DNA of 64,000 nucleotides, taken from positions 496,001-560,000 of the forward strand of contig NZ_AP029023.1 of NCBI RefSeq assembly GCF_037076555.1. Reading direction: 5' to 3'. Under the pieces are notes generated by a model. That model did not search any database. It was not told the DNA's origin and saw nothing but the letters and a program-made list of their open reading frames with translations. The DNA comes from Methylophilus sp. DW102 (GTDB lineage: Bacteria; Pseudomonadota; Gammaproteobacteria; Burkholderiales; Methylophilaceae). Shown in pieces: positions 33,263 to 42,321 of the stretch (the stretch's first letter is position 1; the number at the start of each line of letters is the position of its first letter). The position numbers and the translations under genes are program-made.

Positions 33263-33304
33263 ACATAAAAAAGACAGCGCTTTTAAGCGCTGTCTTTTTT
33301 ATGT
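33263..33304. terminator. Bidirectional rho-independent terminator
   Basis: An 18-bp perfect stem: ACATAAAAAAGACAGCGC (33263-33280) and its complement at 33287-33304, loop TTTTAA, with T-runs on both strands. It separates convergent lpxH and nusB. Confidence 0.95.
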
Positions 33305-33331
33305 CAGATCCAGGTTCAAACCGTCAAAGAA

Positions 33332-34308: not shown

Positions 34309-35982
34309 TTATGCGAACAATGACCAGGCTTTTTGTACGGTCATCCAGATGCCGTAACTGATGGGGATCAGTACTGCCAGCCAGGCCAGTTTTACCAGTA
34401 TGGCAGGTGTTGGTGTATCCGCGTTAACAAGGCTGACTGCGTTGTCTGCCGGTTTTTTGCCGCTTTGCTGTTCAGCCGCCAGTTCGCTGTCGGACATGAA
34501 GTATTTGTCTGCCACTGGCCGGACCAGCAAATTGGCCGTGAAGCCCACCCCAAGCAAAGCCGCCAGCGTCATGAATATCGGCGCATAAATATCTGCATAC
34601 GGAACATGAGCCTCCAGCCTCACATCGTGCATGTAGTTGACGATGACGGGCCCCAAAATCCCTGCGGTCGACCAGGCGGTTAACAGGCGGCCATGAATCG
34701 CACCAACAAACTGCGTGCCAAACAGGTCTGCCAGGTAGGCGGGAATGGTCGCAAAGCCGCCGCCGTACATGGAGGCGATCACACAAAACACCAGTAGGAA
34801 CAAGGCTAGCTGATGATGGTTGGCGGCATAGGTGCCGCAGACATACATCATGATACCCAGCACAAAAAAGATAAAGTAAGTGGTTCTGCGCCCCAATTTA
34901 TCGGAAGAGGTGGCCCAGCCGATACGGCCAAAAATATTGAACAGCGAAATGAGACCGACAAAGCCTGCGCCAACCGCGGCTGCTGTGGCGGTTAATGCTT
35001 CGTCTGCCTTGATCTCGGCAAAGCCCAGTTCTGGCTGGCCTATCAATACGCCACCAAAGGTCTCTTGTAACATCGGCGCTGCTGCGCCAATAATACCGAT
35101 GGCTGCGGACACATTCATGCACAAAATCAGCCATAACAGCCAGAACTGTGGCGTTTTATGGGCATTTTTCAAGTGTACATGCCGGGTGGCTACCAGTCGG
35201 TTGTGTTGTACATCGGGTGGCGTCCAGCCAGCAGGTTTCCAGTTGGCGGCTGGGACACGGTAACCCAGCGAACCACAAGTCATGAATACCGCGTAAATCA
35301 GCGCCAGCACCACAAACGTTTGCCAGACACCAGGGTCTGTCGGTGTGGCAAACATCGCCATCAGCTTAGTCGCCAGAGGTGAGCCTATCATGGCGCCCCC
35401 GCCAAAGCCCATAATCGCCAGGCCGGTCGCCATGCCGCGACGATCTGGGAACCATTTAATCAGGGTGGAAACGGGTGAGATGTAGCCTAGCCCCAAGCCG
35501 ATGCCGCCGATGACGCCGCTACCCAGCCACATCATCCAGAGTTGATGCTGGTGTATGCCCAGCGCCGAAATCAGTAAACCACCGCACCAGCAAAGCATGG
35601 CTACCAGGCCGGCTTTACGTGGTCCTGCCCGTTCCAGCCAGCCGCCCCAAATGGCCGCCGAGCAGCCAAGTAAGACAAAAAATAAGGTATACATCCAGCC
35701 CAGATCAAACTGGGTCCAGTTACAGTCGGTGGCGGTCAATGCTTTTGCGGTGCCGGCCAATTTGTCGGCGAAAGTGGATGCGCCTGCAGCACAGGCGGCA
35801 ACAGGTTTGCCGTCTGGTCCGGTCAATGCATTGCCTAACGGTTTCCAGAACACGCTAAAGCCATAGGCCATGCCTATTGAAAGATGTACTGCCAATGCGG
35901 CTGGCGGTACCAGCCAGCGATTAAACTGATTGCCGGCTGTAATGTGTTCTTTGGAAAGATTAATCAAGATAAAGCCCCTCAT
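34309..35982 (-). CDS. OFA-family MFS transporter (oxalate/formate antiporter-like)
   Basis: A 557-residue inner-membrane transporter with about 12 helices. It carries OFA-type segments: RWLVPPAALAVHLSIGMAYG, the periplasmic Cys pair region (AACAAGAS...ATDCNWTQFDLGW), the loop WFPDRRGMATGLAIMGFGGG and SDKLGRRTTYFIF. The long first periplasmic loop and C-terminal tail are usual for betaproteobacterial members. Substrate unproven: oxalate, formate or another organic acid. ATG 35982 has no ribosome site; TTG 35967 lies 7 nt after AGGGG and may be the true start. It is divergent from phoB. Confidence 0.88.
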   Translation of the reverse strand: MRGFILINLSKEHITAGNQFNRWLVPPAALAVHLSIGMAYGFSVFWKPLGNALTGPDGKPVAACAAGASTFADKLAGTAKALTATDCNWTQFDLGWMYTLFFVLLGCSAAIWGGWLERAGPRKAGLVAMLCWCGGLLISALGIHQHQLWMMWLGSGVIGGIGLGLGYISPVSTLIKWFPDRRGMATGLAIMGFGGGAMIGSPLATKLMAMFATPTDPGVWQTFVVLALIYAVFMTCGSLGYRVPAANWKPAGWTPPDVQHNRLVATRHVHLKNAHKTPQFWLLWLILCMNVSAAIGIIGAAAPMLQETFGGVLIGQPELGFAEIKADEALTATAAAVGAGFVGLISLFNIFGRIGWATSSDKLGRRTTYFIFFVLGIMMYVCGTYAANHHQLALFLLVFCVIASMYGGGFATIPAYLADLFGTQFVGAIHGRLLTAWSTAGILGPVIVNYMHDVRLEAHVPYADIYAPIFMTLAALLGVGFTANLLVRPVADKYFMSDSELAAEQQSGKKPADNAVSLVNADTPTPAILVKLAWLAVLIPISYGIWMTVQKAWSLFA

Positions 35983-36052
35983 TTACGTCTGTTACATATT
36001 GTTACAATTTGCCCCAAAAGGCAATAACAGTCTTGATTAAATTTATGTGATG

Positions 36053-36070
36053 TTGTCATTAAAATGTCAT
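36053..36070 (+). promoter_or_regulatory. Pho box upstream of phoB
   Basis: Direct repeats TTGTCAT (36053-36059) and ATGTCAT (36064-36070) recur with an 11-bp period and AT-rich spacers, the design of a PhoB-binding site (consensus CTGTCAT repeats). Lying 69 bp before the phoB start, it suggests positive autoregulation under phosphate limitation. Confidence 0.75.
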
Positions 36071-36138
36071 AATTCATTCATAAACTGGCGAGCATTCAAT
36101 TAAGTAGTTTGATCTCAATATTGCTCGAAGGGAGTGTC

Positions 36139-36846
36139 ATGGCTGCAGCGAATATTTTGGTGGTAGAAGACGAACCGGCGATCCAGGAATTGCTGGCGTT
36201 GAATATCAAACAGGCGGGGCATCATGCTATCCGTGCCACCAGCGTTGAACATGCACAAATGTTGTTACGCGAAACGATGCCAGACCTGATTTTACTGGAC
36301 TGGATGTTGCCTGGCATGAGCGGGATCGAGTTTGCGCGCAGGCTTAAATCTGACAGCATGACCAAAGAAGTGCCGATTATCATGCTCACTGCCCGCGGCG
36401 ATGAGTTTGACAAGGTGCGTGGTCTAGAAGTGGGTGCGGATGATTATGTGACCAAGCCATTCAGCCCGCGTGAATTAAATGCACGCATCAAGGCCGTGTT
36501 GCGCAGACGTGCGCCGCAGATGACAGATGATCCGATTGAAATTGCCGGCTTGCATCTAGACCCGACTACCCATCGTGTGACTGGTCATAATGTCCATATT
36601 CCACTGGGACCTACCGAATTCAAACTGCTGCATTTCTTCATGACCAATCCGGAGCGTGTGCATAGCCGTACGCAACTGCTGGACAAGGTGTGGGGTGACC
36701 GTGTCTTTGTTGAAGACCGTACCGTGGATGTGCATATCCGTCGTTTACGCAACGCACTGGTGGCCTCCAATCATCAGGAAATGATTCAGACTGTCCGCGG
36801 TTCAGGCTACCGTTTCTCCGTGCATACCGATCCTGGTACGCAATAA
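36139..36846 (+). CDS. phoB: Phosphate regulon response regulator PhoB
   Basis: A 235-residue OmpR/PhoB-family transcription factor. Receiver domain with acidic pocket (Asp11, Glu12), phosphoacceptor Asp54 in [13 protein letters not shown], and TARG and KPFSPREL. The winged-helix effector has the PhoB-type [37 protein letters not shown] and [13 protein letters not shown] 36139 follows AAGGGAG (36128-36134); longer frames to 36109 are not needed. No phoR, phoU or pst gene is adjacent, unlike the common phoB-phoR pair. Confidence 0.95.
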
Positions 36847-36873: not shown

Positions 36874-36896
36874 GAGCAAGACCATGGGTCTTGCTC
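36874..36896 (+). terminator. Hairpin after phoB
   Basis: Perfect 10-bp arms GAGCAAGACC (36874-36883) and GGTCTTGCTC (36887-36896) with a 3-nt loop. It has no U-tract. It sits between phoB and the glycosyltransferase operon and may partly uncouple them. Confidence 0.55.
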
Positions 36897-36946
36897 TACC
36901 ATCCGGCAGGGTGTCGTGATACGCTTGCGCCTGTTTCATTTTTTTA

Positions 36947-38587
36947 ATGGCAAGGCCCATGAACGCTGCTGCAAATGCTTCCTTGAATGAGTCACTTTAC
37001 CGCTGGTTGATCCGGCTGTTTTGGCTTGTACTGGTCGCATGGGTGGCGTTGACCTTCCGTCAGCATGGCATCAGCAATGATGAGTATGTGCAGCATACCT
37101 ATGGCCAAATGCTGCTCGACTGGTATCAGTCGGGATTCAAGGACCAGGACGCTTTTCATTACCGTAATCTATATCTCTATGGCGGCCTGTTCGATATTAT
37201 CGCGGCCGCACTCGACCCCTATATCCCGGTCATGATCTGGGATATCCGACACCTGCTCTCGGCCTTGTTTGGCTTGCTTGGTTTTTATGGTGTCTCGCAA
37301 TTTGGCCGGTTGCTAGGCGGCCCCCGTCTGGCACTGTTGGCAATGACCATGTTGTTTTTGACGGTGTCGTGGTCAGGCACCATGTTTACCCATACCAAAG
37401 ATGTTCCGTTTGCGACCTGCATGCTGTGGGCGCTGTATGCCACCGCCTTGGTGGTGCGCGACATGGAACTGGTGAGTGGCAGAGTCATTGTCCTGCTTGG
37501 CTTTGCGGTCGGCGGTGCGCTTGGCTTGCGCGTGGGCGGCGCCTTTGCCGTGATTTACCTGGTTTTGCTGGTCATGCTGCGGGCCTGGCTCGATCACAGG
37601 CAACTGCATACCCCGATATTTTCGCGCCTGGTGCGTATGGTGTGGGTGTTGCTGCCTGCGGCAGTGCTGGCGTTTGTGTTTATGGCCATGTGCTGGCCGT
37701 GGAGCGTGATCGAGGCCGACAACATGCTGGAGGCGGCCAAGTCGTTCTCCCATTTTGACTTTAATATGCAAACCATCGCCAACGGGGTGGTGTATAACAT
37801 CAGCGAAGTTCCACGCAGCTATTTGTTCCAGTATCTGGCGGTGAAGTTGCCTGAGGCAGCGCTATTGGCGTTTGCCGGGGTTGTCCTACTATGGCTGCTG
37901 AATAGACGGTCACTGCGCCTGGCCGACAATGCAACACGCATGCCTATGTATACGCTGTTGATGGGCATCCTGTTTCCGTTGGTCTTTGTCATGGATGACC
38001 GTCCCGCTTTGTACAATGGCGTCCGACACTTTACCTTTATCTTGCCCTTGCTGGCCATCTTGTCTGCCTGGTCTGTGCTCGCGGTTTGGCAGGCCTGCCT
38101 GCAGTGCACATCGTCCTTGCATTATCACGCCCAGGCGCTGTGGGCGGGGGTTATCGCCGGACTCATGCTGGTGACGCTGGTGGATATTGTGCAAATGCAT
38201 CCGTATCAATACGTCAGGTTAAATCGTCTGGTTGGCGATCAGGCACAAGCACAGTTCAAATGGGAGGGCGATTACTGGTCCAGCGCCCTGCGGGCGGCTG
38301 CGGCCCAACTCACGGCCCTGCATTTGCCCGCGCGCAGCCAGCCTTATTGGGTGGCCGCCTGTGTGGATACGCCACAAATTGAGCCCTATCTGGATGGTCG
38401 CTTCAGTGTCACCCGCCGCTGGGAGGAAGCAGATTTTTTCCTCTCCACCACCAATATGCATTGCCACGAGGTCATGCAAGGCAAACTCATCAGTGGCGTC
38501 CAGCGCGATGGCATGTGGCTGGCGGTAGTCAAGGACCGTCGTCACTTGCAAGGGGCGGATCGCAAAGCGACGCCAGCCAAAAACTAA
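36947..38587 (+). CDS. Membrane glycosyltransferase, GT-C/ArnT-like
   Basis: An inner-membrane protein of 546 residues with about 11-12 hydrophobic segments, the acidic first periplasmic loop motif GISNDEYVQHTYGQ (about 45-58) typical of GT-C/GT39/ArnT-like polyprenyl-phosphate sugar transferases, and a C-terminal periplasmic domain (about 435-546). Such enzymes move a sugar from undecaprenyl phosphate to an envelope acceptor. Its neighbours are a GT2, a GtrA and a YdjC-like deacetylase, which together fit a lipid A amino-sugar pathway. ATG 36959 is an alternative start. Acceptor unproven. Confidence 0.82.
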   Translation: MARPMNAAANASLNESLYRWLIRLFWLVLVAWVALTFRQHGISNDEYVQHTYGQMLLDWYQSGFKDQDAFHYRNLYLYGGLFDIIAAALDPYIPVMIWDIRHLLSALFGLLGFYGVSQFGRLLGGPRLALLAMTMLFLTVSWSGTMFTHTKDVPFATCMLWALYATALVVRDMELVSGRVIVLLGFAVGGALGLRVGGAFAVIYLVLLVMLRAWLDHRQLHTPIFSRLVRMVWVLLPAAVLAFVFMAMCWPWSVIEADNMLEAAKSFSHFDFNMQTIANGVVYNISEVPRSYLFQYLAVKLPEAALLAFAGVVLLWLLNRRSLRLADNATRMPMYTLLMGILFPLVFVMDDRPALYNGVRHFTFILPLLAILSAWSVLAVWQACLQCTSSLHYHAQALWAGVIAGLMLVTLVDIVQMHPYQYVRLNRLVGDQAQAQFKWEGDYWSSALRAAAAQLTALHLPARSQPYWVAACVDTPQIEPYLDGRFSVTRRWEEADFFLSTTNMHCHEVMQGKLISGVQRDGMWLAVVKDRRHLQGADRKATPAKN

Positions 38588-38632
38588 CCGCAATCCGCTA
38601 CAATAGTCCCAGTTATTTTTGAGTATGACGCC

Positions 38633-39610
38633 ATGACCACTGCTGTTAGCCATCGCCAATCTGCCCAGCCGCATATGACGGTGATGGTGCCTGCTTACAA
38701 CGAAGAAAAAAATATTGCAAAAACCTTGCAAAATATCCGGCAAGATTTGCAGCAAATGTCGCCCAACTGGGACATTGTCGTGGTGGATGACGGTAGCCGT
38801 GATCAGACCTCTCTCGTGGTGCAGTCGCTGGTGGAAGAGTGTCGTGTGACCCTGGTCAAGTTCTCCCGCAACTTTGGCAAGGAAAACGCCATCAGCGCTG
38901 GCCTGACTTATGCCAAGGGTGAGATCGTCATTTGTATGGATGCCGATGGTCAGCACGCTTCAGATCTGATGTACACCATGCTGGAAAAGTGGCGGGAAGG
39001 ATATGACATGGTCTATGCCGTGCGTCAGGACCGCGAGCAGGAATCGCCTTTCAAACTCTGGGGATCTCGGCTGTTTTATCGCATGATGAGTAGCAGCACC
39101 CATGTGGAAATCCCACGCGACGCCGGTGATTTCCGCCTGATGGACCGTAAAGTGGTCGATGCGCTGTGTGCACTGCCAGAACGCAACCGCTTCATGAAAG
39201 GTATCTATGCCTGGGTTGGCTACAAGTCGATCGGCATTCCGTACACCCCATTGCCGCGGTTGCATGGTGAAAGTGCTTATTCAAAACTCAAGCTGATTGC
39301 CTTGGCCTGGACTGGCATTACCAGTTTCTCGGTGTTGCCTTTGCGTCTGGCCAGCCTGACTGGTGCCACCCTGGCTATTCTGGCGTTTGCTTATGGTCTG
39401 CTGGTGGTCATTGATGCGCTGTTTTTTCATGAGTCTGTCCCTGGATGGCCCACGGTCGTCGCCAGCATGATGTTCCTGTCTGGTGTGCAGTTGTTGTTTA
39501 TCGGCGTGCTTGGCGAATATCTGGCACGTGTTTACGATGAGGTCAAAGGGCGGCCACCCTACATTGTGGCAGAAGTCGTCACGCCTGCGCCATCAGCGGA
39601 TTCCCGCTAA
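38633..39610 (+). CDS. Family 2 glycosyltransferase, ArnC/DPM1/GtrB-like polyprenyl-phosphate sugar synthase
   Basis: A 325-residue enzyme. The cytosolic GT2 domain has MVMVPAYNEEKNIAKTL, the nucleotide site VVVDDGSRDQT, FSRNFGKENAIS and the catalytic ICMDADGQHASDLM. Two C-terminal transmembrane helices (about 235-300) anchor it. This layout belongs to polyprenyl-phosphate-sugar synthases (GtrB, ArnC, FlmF), which load a sugar onto undecaprenyl phosphate. It is 45 bp after the transferase and 7 bp before gtrA, hence in one operon. Confidence 0.92.
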   Translation: MTTAVSHRQSAQPHMTVMVPAYNEEKNIAKTLQNIRQDLQQMSPNWDIVVVDDGSRDQTSLVVQSLVEECRVTLVKFSRNFGKENAISAGLTYAKGEIVICMDADGQHASDLMYTMLEKWREGYDMVYAVRQDREQESPFKLWGSRLFYRMMSSSTHVEIPRDAGDFRLMDRKVVDALCALPERNRFMKGIYAWVGYKSIGIPYTPLPRLHGESAYSKLKLIALAWTGITSFSVLPLRLASLTGATLAILAFAYGLLVVIDALFFHESVPGWPTVVASMMFLSGVQLLFIGVLGEYLARVYDEVKGRPPYIVAEVVTPAPSADSR

Positions 39611-39617
39611 GCGTCCC

Positions 39618-40004
39618 ATGCGTGCCTCGGTACTCGGGTTTGTCAGTGTTGGTGCCTTCGCGGCCGCCGTCCATTATGTCATGGCGCTACTGGCTCATGC
39701 CTGGGGCCTGTCACCGGCACAGGCGAATTGGATCGGTTTCTTATGCGCATTTCCGGTCAGTTACCTCGGTCATCGGCTTTGGTCTTTTCGCGGCACACAA
39801 GCCAATCATCTGGCGGCATTCTGCAAGTTTTTTGCGGTGGCCTTATTGGGGTTCTTTGGCAATCAGGCCCTGTTATGGCTGGGGCTGAACTATACGCCGC
39901 TGCCTTTCTGGCTGGTGCTCGGCTGCGTGATGGTGATGGTCGCGGCAAGCACCTGGCTGCTCAGCCGCTTTTGGGCGTTTCAACACCATGAGGGCCAAGC
40001 ATGA
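39618..40004 (+). CDS. GtrA-like flippase protein
   Basis: A 128-residue protein with four transmembrane segments and GtrA features: LGFVSVGAFAAAVHYVMALL, WIGFLCAFPVSYLGHRLWSF, FFAVALLGFFGNQALLWLGL and a final TWLLSRFWAFQ. GtrA proteins are thought to flip polyprenyl-linked sugars to the periplasmic face. ATG 39618 lies 8 bp after the GT2 stop; a longer ORF (39483) reads through GT2 in another frame. Its stop overlaps the YdjC gene (ATGA). Confidence 0.88.
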   Translation: MRASVLGFVSVGAFAAAVHYVMALLAHAWGLSPAQANWIGFLCAFPVSYLGHRLWSFRGTQANHLAAFCKFFAVALLGFFGNQALLWLGLNYTPLPFWLVLGCVMVMVAASTWLLSRFWAFQHHEGQA

Positions 40005-40852
40005 CGCAGCTGATTATTTGTGCAGATGATTATGCGCAGTCCGCCGAGATTGATGACGCCATCCTGGCCTTGATCGAGCGCGGCGTATTGACCGCCACCT
40101 CTTGCATGACCTTGAGTCCGCGCTGGCAAGAGAGTGCCCGGCATGTCACGCCAGCCATCCGCAATTTGGCAGACATCGGCTTGCATCTTGATTTCACGCA
40201 GTACGCGCACACCTCACGCTTTGCACATCCCGTCCTGATCATGCGCAGCCTGTGCGGCATGCTCAACCCTGCAGATGTGACGGCGAATATCACACAGCAA
40301 CTGGATGCCTTTGAAGCGGCCTTGCACACGCCGCCTGATTATATTGATGGTCACTTGCATGTGCACCAGTTGCCAGTCATCCGCGAATCGTTGATCACAC
40401 TCATGCAACAACGCTATGGCCATCTGCCCGTGGATCAACGTCCCTGGTTGCGTATTTCCAGCCCGCCAGCAGCAACCGGTCTCAAGGCGCGCATTATTCA
40501 TTGGCTAGGCGCACAAGCCTTGCAGCGACAGGCAAGTGCGGCTGGTTTCCGGGTCTCGCCAGTCTTATTAGGCGTCTATGATTTTCAGGGCGATGCTGCC
40601 GCCTATCAGGCACACTGGATAGAATGGGCCAGACAACTCAAGCAACTGGCGCCTGTCAGGCAAAACGAATTGCCACCTGTGCTCATGTGCCATCCTGCCC
40701 GGCCAACACAGACGGTGGATCCCTTGGACCCCATCGCCATTGCGCGCATGATCGAGTGGCAAGTCATGCAGTCCGCCGATTTTTCAGCCTGGCTTAAGAT
40801 GGCAGATTTACAGCCGGTCAAAGGCCACCCGAAAGGCCTGCCATGCGCGTAA
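40001..40852 (+). CDS. YdjC/ChbG-family carbohydrate deacetylase (NaxD/HpnK-like)
   Basis: A 283-residue metal-dependent deacetylase. The N-terminus LIICADDYAQSAEID carries the metal-binding Asp pair; IGLHLDFTQ and DYIDGHLHVHQLPVI supply His ligands; ending with MCHPARP. In Francisella the related NaxD deacetylates undecaprenyl-P-GalNAc before transfer to lipid A; the family also includes HpnK of hopanoid synthesis and ChbG. No hopanoid genes are adjacent, while polyprenyl-sugar genes are, which supports the NaxD-like reading (inference). Confidence 0.88.
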   Translation: MTQLIICADDYAQSAEIDDAILALIERGVLTATSCMTLSPRWQESARHVTPAIRNLADIGLHLDFTQYAHTSRFAHPVLIMRSLCGMLNPADVTANITQQLDAFEAALHTPPDYIDGHLHVHQLPVIRESLITLMQQRYGHLPVDQRPWLRISSPPAATGLKARIIHWLGAQALQRQASAAGFRVSPVLLGVYDFQGDAAAYQAHWIEWARQLKQLAPVRQNELPPVLMCHPARPTQTVDPLDPIAIARMIEWQVMQSADFSAWLKMADLQPVKGHPKGLPCA

Positions 40853-42321
40853 TGAATGCTTGGCTTAATCAGGCCTCGTGGATGCAGCAAGCCGCTCTTT
40901 CATGCCTGTTAGGCGCGTTAACGGTGTTTGGTTTTGCGCCGTTTAACCTGTTTTGGCTACCTTGGCTGACGCTGGCAGCGTTGCTGGTAATTTGGCAGCA
41001 GGCGGCCACACCCGCGCAAGTGTTCAGGCTGGGCCTGGCGTTTGGCTTGGGCTTATACGGTGTTGGTATCTACTGGATTTATATCAGCCTGCATACCTTT
41101 GGCGGCATGCCCTGGTGGTTTGCCGGTTTTTGTACCTTTTGCCTGTGCGCCTTCATGGCACTGTTCCCGGCCATCGCGGGTTACCTGGCAAAGAAAGTCG
41201 GTCATCTGCTATGGTCTGCGCCACTGCTATGGGCTTTGTCAGACTGGGTGCGTAGCTGGATTTTTACCGGGTTCCCCTGGTTGACTCTGGGCTACAGTCA
41301 GGCCCCAGATAGCCCGCTCAGCGGTTTTCTGCCTGTCGTTGGCATCTATGGCGTCTCTGCCTTGCTCATGCTGGGGGCTGCCAGTCTTGCTTGCCTGCTG
41401 ATCACGCCGCAGCGTAAACCTGCTTTCATCATGCTCGCGCTATTGTGGCTAGGCGGCAGCCTGCTGACACTGGTGCCGTGGACGCAGCCTACGGGAAAAC
41501 CTGTCTCGGTCGCCTTGCTGCAAGGCAACATTAGCCAAACCATCAAATGGTCGCCTGAGCACGCGGAACAGGCCCTGCGTCAGTATTTCGACATGGTGCA
41601 GCAAACACGAGCCCAACTGATGGTGCTGCCCGAAACCGCCTTGCCAGTGTTGCTTGACCAACTTGCGCCCAGCTATCTCGATGCTCTCAAACAGCACGCA
41701 GTACAGCAAAAAGGCGACCTCTTGGTCGGCGTTGTTGAGTCCAAACAAGACCAGTACTTTAATAGCGCCATCAGCCTGGGCAGCTCTCCCACACAGTCAT
41801 ACTCCAAAAGCCACCTGGTGCCTTTTGGCGAATTTATTCCGCTTAAAAGCCTGTTCGGCTGGATCTACCGAGACTGGCTGCATATGCCGCTCAGCGATTT
41901 ATCCCGCGGCACATCGAAACAGCCATTGCTGATTGCCGGGCAAAAAGTCGGTGTCAATATTTGCTATGAAGACGTGTTTGGGGAAGAAATTGCCCAGCAA
42001 CTGCCGCAAGCCGAGCTCTTGGTCAATATCAGCAACGATGCCTGGTACGGACAATCGTTTGCGGCCGACCAGCATATGCAATTCAGCCAGGTGCGCGCCA
42101 TTGAAACCGGGCGGATGGTGTTGCGTAGCACCAATACGGGCGCGACCGCCATCATCGATAAAAATGGCCAGGTATTGCAGCATGCACCGCATGATGAGGC
42201 GGTGATTTTGACGGGCGAAGCGCAGAGCTACCAAGGACAGACGCCTTATGTTTGGTGGGGGAATTGGGCGTTTTTGGTCTTGAGTGTGGCAGGATTGATC
42301 TGGATTAGGGTAAGAAGGTAA
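40843..42321 (+). CDS. lnt: Apolipoprotein N-acyltransferase
   Basis: Inner-membrane enzyme, 492 residues, that adds the third acyl chain to lipoproteins. The N-terminal half has the transmembrane helices; the periplasmic nitrilase-like domain has catalytic Glu264 in LPETALPVLL, Lys322 in SYSKSHLVPFGEFIPL and Cys374 in VNICYEDVFGEE. The ORF overlaps the deacetylase by 10 bp from ATG 40843, or by 1 bp from ATG 40852 (TAATG). The operon setting places lipoprotein maturation with the sugar modification genes. Complete length. Confidence 0.97.
   Translation: MRVMNAWLNQASWMQQAALSCLLGALTVFGFAPFNLFWLPWLTLAALLVIWQQAATPAQVFRLGLAFGLGLYGVGIYWIYISLHTFGGMPWWFAGFCTFCLCAFMALFPAIAGYLAKKVGHLLWSAPLLWALSDWVRSWIFTGFPWLTLGYSQAPDSPLSGFLPVVGIYGVSALLMLGAASLACLLITPQRKPAFIMLALLWLGGSLLTLVPWTQPTGKPVSVALLQGNISQTIKWSPEHAEQALRQYFDMVQQTRAQLMVLPETALPVLLDQLAPSYLDALKQHAVQQKGDLLVGVVESKQDQYFNSAISLGSSPTQSYSKSHLVPFGEFIPLKSLFGWIYRDWLHMPLSDLSRGTSKQPLLIAGQKVGVNICYEDVFGEEIAQQLPQAELLVNISNDAWYGQSFAADQHMQFSQVRAIETGRMVLRSTNTGATAIIDKNGQVLQHAPHDEAVILTGEAQSYQGQTPYVWWGNWAFLVLSVAGLIWIRVRR

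Follow-up and report, generated by a model that had tools for sequence, protein, structure and literature searches.

A divergent GT-C transferase paired with a predicted carrier-linked hexosamine module in Methylophilus

In a 64,000-nucleotide stretch of DNA (the window; positions 496001-560000 of a complete 3.02 Mb Methylophilus genome) we find four consecutive + strand genes for a GT-C fold membrane glycosyltransferase (GT-C), a GtrB/ArnC-type family 2 glycosyltransferase (GT2), a small GtrA-type membrane protein and a YdjC-family deacetylase, whose products probably decorate the cell envelope with a positively charged sugar. We hold with good confidence that the four genes serve to load a hexosamine on a lipid carrier, deacetylate it, flip it and transfer it. 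For the whole pathway read from the sequence, in which the most likely envelope acceptor would be a lipid A phosphate, our judgement is evenly balanced. What is new here is that a lineage-specific GT-C is paired with a known module.

Results and Discussion

The four genes lie between phoB and lnt according to the open reading frame (ORF) calls, with 45 nt between GT-C and GT2, 7 nt between GT2 and GtrA, a 4-nt overlap of GtrA with YdjC and an lnt start that overlaps the end of YdjC. The tightly spaced row and the overlapping lnt that had been described in the original prediction, a reading of the same DNA as a lipid A amino-sugar modification operon, were both recovered. The GT-C, the putative final transferase (36947..38587), belongs to a subfamily that we saw almost exclusively in Methylophilaceae. 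The GT2 (38633..39610; PF00535, E 1.1e-34) is a predicted undecaprenyl-phosphate N-acetylhexosamine synthase, GtrA (39618..40004; PF04138, E 2.9e-20) a proposed flippase and YdjC (40001..40852; PF04794, E 9.6e-45) a predicted deacetylase of carrier-linked N-acetylhexosamine. The longest GtrA frame begins at 39483; the ATG at 39618 is the likely start.

These genes are a real unit and not a chance adjacency. Among 120 Methylophilaceae genomes, sampled from a larger group and searched with thresholds of E 0.001 for YdjC and E 1e-20 for GT-C, both genes occur in the identical 47 genomes (tables compared by eye), and they are adjacent on one contig and strand in 47/47; the GT-C gene appears in pieces in two of these, G058 and G071. 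The order GT-C, GT2, (GtrA), YdjC is kept in all 20 loci fetched, with GtrA found in 19. The cassette of genus g18 lacks GtrA: in L041 GT2 and YdjC are separated by 3 bases, and the GtrA-family genes found in G017, G035 and G047 lie away from the cassette.

The GT2 has GtrB sll0501 (E 4e-82, 279 bits) and ArnC (8e-47) as its best solved relatives, and it is a polyprenyl-phosphate GT2 adjoining a deacetylase, as expected of NaxD-type systems. The best fold matches of the AlphaFold2 (AF2) model of YdjC (predicted local distance difference test, pLDDT, 92.2) are EF3048 and ChbG; the ChbG chitooligosaccharide deacetylase model NF002559 gives YdjC 46.5 bits at a cut-off of 227. Eight YdjC residues (D9, D10, H62, H118, H120, H122, R151 and H231) are invariant, 8/8, with Acinetobacter, Chromobacterium and other rows, and we take them to be the catalytic and metal residues. 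It is the single YdjC found in the genome. The genome may have another gtr-like system, as a second GtrA-family gene lies at 301584-301922.

The known systems are cited here from excerpts of the respective papers. In these, Francisella flmF2 and flmK are tied to the galactosamine modification of lipid A (PMC4688374), and Acinetobacter baumannii NaxD deacetylates carrier-linked N-acetylgalactosamine for lipid A (PMC10927774). Bordetella lgmA-C are required for glucosamine (GlcN) on lipid A, while lgmD, in the excerpted text, is not (PMC4993483); LgmB adds GlcN to phosphates (PMC11401268; see also PMC11895810). Set beside Francisella NaxD/FlmF2/FlmK by description, and not by the Francisella proteins, the cassette shares the GT2, the YdjC deacetylase and a GT-C. 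Bordetella lgmABC(D), likened by description and not by sequence, leads us to expect an outcome of the same kind, a hexosamine on a lipid A phosphate. The Acinetobacter loci that we read have GtrA in addition: seven run ydjC-GT2-gtrA-ArnT-like (the GT2 is split in L127), with YdjC first, whereas it is last in the cassette of the window. Acinetobacter L123 and similar loci are presumably naxD orthologues; identities between the window and L123 are 35% for YdjC, 46% for GT2 and 36% for GtrA. Loci of Chromobacterium, Aquitalea and Pseudogulbenkiania show exactly the gene order of the window's cassette, but their GT-C is of another type and their YdjC is 32-34% identical (L071, L079, L090). The cassette differs from the Francisella and Acinetobacter NaxD systems in a GT-C that is not ArnT-like by sequence model and in an acceptor, lipid A, that is presumptive here.

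The four steps of loading, deacetylation, flipping and transfer are well supported, because GT2, GtrA and YdjC belong to a module that elsewhere stands mostly beside an ArnT-like transferase. In 99 YdjC loci outside Methylophilaceae, a GT2 was found within 5.5 kb in 95 and GtrA in 81; an ArnT-like GT-C is present in 67 of these loci and another PMT_2-type GT-C in 11, where "ArnT-like" is the label of a home-made model from seven GT-Cs (E 1e-8), six of them checked with NCBIfam. Part of the set stems from an Aquitalea-like query with 422 relatives, of which the best 80 were kept, a choice that biases the set toward ArnT-like partners, and 6 of the 99 loci duplicate others. With GT2, GtrA and YdjC all homologous to those of NaxD-looking loci, the gene set is indeed complete for the four steps, as had been proposed. 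The flippase, which had been singled out as an addition, is an ordinary member of such loci given its frequency near YdjC.

In a YdjC tree of 112 rows (quick method; without L107 and L109, whose frames are split or short, and without six identical rows) the Methylophilaceae form one clade (Shimodaira-Hasegawa-like approximate likelihood ratio test, SH-aLRT, 94), which sits among Burkholderiales rows with an ArnT-like, another or no GT-C found. Parsimony counts 18 changes of the GT-C label when "none found" is treated as one label too, and well supported branches force at least five changes of the ArnT-like label. The 20/112 rows with no GT-C found are an upper bound because the ORF caller mislabels GC-rich loci; one of two locus readings also missed the YdjC of L058. 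Together with the partner counts these changes make GT2/GtrA/YdjC look like a widespread module with exchangeable final transferases. A carrier-linked hexosamine module would thus be paired with different final transferases, so that a YdjC/NaxD homologue alone is no proof of lipid A modification.

Within the order (presumably Burkholderiales; 300 genomes sampled from a larger group) YdjC was found in 27 genomes (E 1e-15) and the GT-C in six (E 1e-25), namely five Methylophilaceae and G176, all YdjC positive. At most four GT-C candidates were scored per genome in this search, which may make the GT-C look rarer outside the family than it is. In G176 (L070), a member of another family, about 174 kb separate a stand-alone relative of the window GT-C (41% identity) from a GT2-gtrA-ydjC trio.

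The pathway may be pictured as follows. By homology to GtrB and ArnC, the GT2 would put N-acetylhexosamine on undecaprenyl phosphate, and YdjC, judged by its family and conserved residues, would remove the acetyl group at the cytoplasmic face as reported for NaxD. GtrA, for which this role is itself a proposed one, would carry the lipid-linked hexosamine over the inner membrane. The GT-C would then transfer the hexosamine (GlcN or galactosamine) to an acceptor in the envelope, for which a lipid A phosphate is the likeliest candidate, and leave a less negative surface.

The GT-C had been called ArnT-like. This stands for the fold and for remote profiles and falls for the sequence itself. The predicted structure is a GT-C fold with ArnT as the first fold match; the multi-transmembrane fold and the acidic residues conserved in its first periplasmic loops, placed by analogy with ArnT, assign it to the GT-C superfamily, and conserved acidic and basic residues are present in its family. 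HHalign aligns it with the ArnT-like profile over 314 columns (probability 91.9, E 6.8e-7), and matches D45 to the PDEGRY aspartate and D152 to the second of the conserved aspartates. The GT-C fold, the DE pair and the second Asp are common to the window GT-C and ArnT (PDB 5f15, 5ezm), but the identity in the structural alignment is 13-14%. No Pfam or NCBIfam family matches the window GT-C at E 0.001, and nothing meaningful in the PDB matched its sequence. PF13231 is carried by many of the 120 GT-C relatives listed out of 718 (another protein-relative search listed 120 of 1588).

Several observations weigh against lipid A as the acceptor. PRK13279, the ArnT equivalog model (cut-off 567), matches 0/32 GT-C homologues at E 1 and so does not place the window GT-C in ArnT, while it scores 101-192 bits for 8/10 GT-Cs that adjoin related YdjC genes in other families (6/8 and 2/2; the two without a match are those of L060 and L061). 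By sequence, only the remote profile similarity to ArnT-like rows links the protein to ArnT, FlmK or LgmB. The window GT-C lacks the KPP motif that 18 ArnT-like rows have without exception; 30/31 window-type homologues have (R/K)-N-L-Y at this place. Fold scores hardly tell ArnT from OST, ALG12 or PMT, and the GT-C type of the window occurs in 0/99 of the YdjC loci outside Methylophilaceae. The GT2 does not discriminate either, as it scores equally well with GtrB sll0501 and with the GT2s of YdjC loci. Additionally, glucan synthase genes and not lipid A genes lie downstream of the cassette in 16/20 Methylophilaceae loci read. A literature search that left out most subscription journals found nothing joining Methylophilus, outer membrane and lipid A, and the papers on Methylophilaceae, lipopolysaccharide and glycosyltransferase, judged by title, include none on this cassette. 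We conclude that the window GT-C is ArnT-like at the fold and remote-profile level only. Because of this, and because its type was seen in none of the YdjC loci elsewhere, lipid A can be called only the presumptive acceptor. The likeness to lipid A modification therefore holds for GT2, GtrA and YdjC, kin to those of NaxD-like loci, and not for the GT-C by sequence model.

Could the cassette be a plain O-antigen system? GtrA is the proposed flippase of three-component systems with a variable GT-C (excerpts of PMC11127046), and the cassette shares with gtrABC O-antigen glucosylation this proposed flippase, a GtrB synthase and a variable GT-C. The GT2 would then make undecaprenyl-phosphate glucose, GtrA would flip it, the GT-C would add glucose, and YdjC would be unrelated. 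The 279 bits of the GT2 with GtrB sll0501, as good as for many GT2s of YdjC loci, fit this idea. However, the cassette has a constant deacetylase in addition, beside the GT-C in all 47 cassette genomes and near a GT2 in 95/99 loci elsewhere, which gtrABC leaves unexplained, and we consider this explanation very improbable. The other alternative named beforehand, that YdjC is HpnK of a hopanoid decoration cluster, draws on a weak HpnK model match of 46 bits. This is far below the cut-off of 232.6 bits, no squalene-hopene cyclase (PF13243) was found in the complete genome by a search whose control was positive in 2/14 known genomes, and the YdjC of the cassette is the only one found there. We have excluded HpnK on its sub-cut-off score and the PF13243 result, and regard its chances as next to negligible.

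A different acceptor for the same carrier-linked hexosamine pathway is a more serious matter. Here the GT-C would decorate the lipopolysaccharide core or O-antigen, or a periplasmic beta-glucan made by GH17/NdvB-like enzymes, and we judge this to be possible, although less probable than lipid A. It is the GT-C that sets the cassette apart from other loci. The 16 loci with downstream glucan synthase genes are all the non-phoB-linked loci read (L034, L035 and L037-L050; two of the window's genus and 14 of other genera), and each of them has a GH17-GT2 (NdvB-like) gene downstream of the cassette, usually after a small opposite-strand gene and a GH17 gene; in a few of them the small gene or GH17 was not recognised as such. 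Upstream lie queG/tsaE/amiC or other genes. In pseudomonads the GH17-GT2 architecture is described as that of an NdvB-like cyclic beta-glucan synthase (PMC10237404, from an excerpt). Each of the 47 cassette genomes has an NdvB-like gene, which is present in 60/120 genomes overall.

This co-occurrence is, however, confounded by phylogeny and genome reduction, and the association is unproven because the sole control gene proved to be core (114/120 genomes) and hence uninformative. Among nine cassette-less loci with an NdvB-like gene, three (L152, L154 and L156) retain the row of queG, small gene, GH17 and ndvB but have no cassette between queG and the small gene, which indicates that glucan synthesis does not depend on the cassette; the stretches read of the other six showed no queG. 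The small gene is on the opposite strand, and in the window's genome the cassette (0.53 Mb) is far from the NdvB-like gene (1.08 Mb). It is a rather doubtful but conceivable idea that the Methylophilaceae swapped the lipid A transferase of a NaxD-type module for a new GT-C family with another acceptor, such as the GH17/NdvB-like beta-glucan. If a glucan is the acceptor, it would become zwitterionic or cationic. The methylotroph, which is not known to be a pathogen, could serve as a test bed for a divergent GT-C family acting on lipid A versus another glycan.

The flanking genes are phoB (36109..36846, + strand; TIGR02154, 356 bits, cut-off 296) and lnt, the apolipoprotein N-acyltransferase gene (40843..42321, + strand; TIGR00546, 343 bits, cut-off 133), both outside the module. 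Pho-box-like direct repeats, TTGTCATTAAAATGTCATAATTCATTCAT, precede phoB at 36053..36081 (+ strand). They are kept in the window and in 4/4 other phoB-linked loci, with 1-2 changes in two of those compared. In the genomes examined, phoB, cassette and lnt stand together in 6/24, all Methylophilus. The three are not adjacent in 14 other cassette-bearing genomes, and phoB and lnt are not adjacent in the four cassette-less ones either; both genes lie away from the cassette in 14/20 cassette-bearing genomes, on which ground lnt was rejected as a functional partner. The two genes appear to have come beside the cassette through rearrangement in one lineage, and both links look incidental.

A regulatory proposal, independent of the readings above, would place the cassette in the Pho regulon by read-through from phoB, as an envelope response to phosphate starvation. 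The adjacency and the Pho-box-like site before phoB speak for it, but this adjacency was seen in six of the 24 genomes examined, and neither a Pho box before the cassette nor a conserved phoB linkage was found. In 5/5 loci phoB and the GT-C gene are separated by a predicted hairpin (36874..36896, + strand, in the window), which could be a phoB terminator, although it has no T-run on the + strand and its z is only -1.2 to -2.8 against mononucleotide shuffles (-2.8 in the window). It is followed at 36916..36929 (+ strand) by a promoter-like element, GTGATACGCTTGCG, putatively the promoter of the cassette in Methylophilus; its TGATACGCT part is shared before the GT-C gene by the window and 4/4 other phoB-linked loci, and no Pho-box match lies directly before this gene. 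In most of the other genera read, the cassette has a TATAAT-like sequence in front of it (judged by eye). We consider Pho control improbable, and a phoB operon that includes the cassette was rejected on the adjacency, hairpin and promoter-element data; the cassette is probably transcribed from its own promoter and not from phoB.

The 14-mer GTGATACGCTTGCG has a single exact match in the genome and was rejected as a regulon mark; with up to two mismatches it has 31 matches versus 12 for the reversed pattern. The window yielded no matches to Rfam and none in a tRNA scan. The Pho-box pattern scan of the window gave 18 matches versus 16.4 expected, which is not above chance, and this holds also for matches such as the Pho-box-like one with two mismatches at 33290-33306, between lpxH and nusB. 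The divergent pair of an MFS transporter gene and phoB (window 34309-36846) is also present where the cassette is elsewhere, for example in G048 and G057. Finally, G087, of the same species, has a second lnt, 44% identical, at C1:120757-122178.

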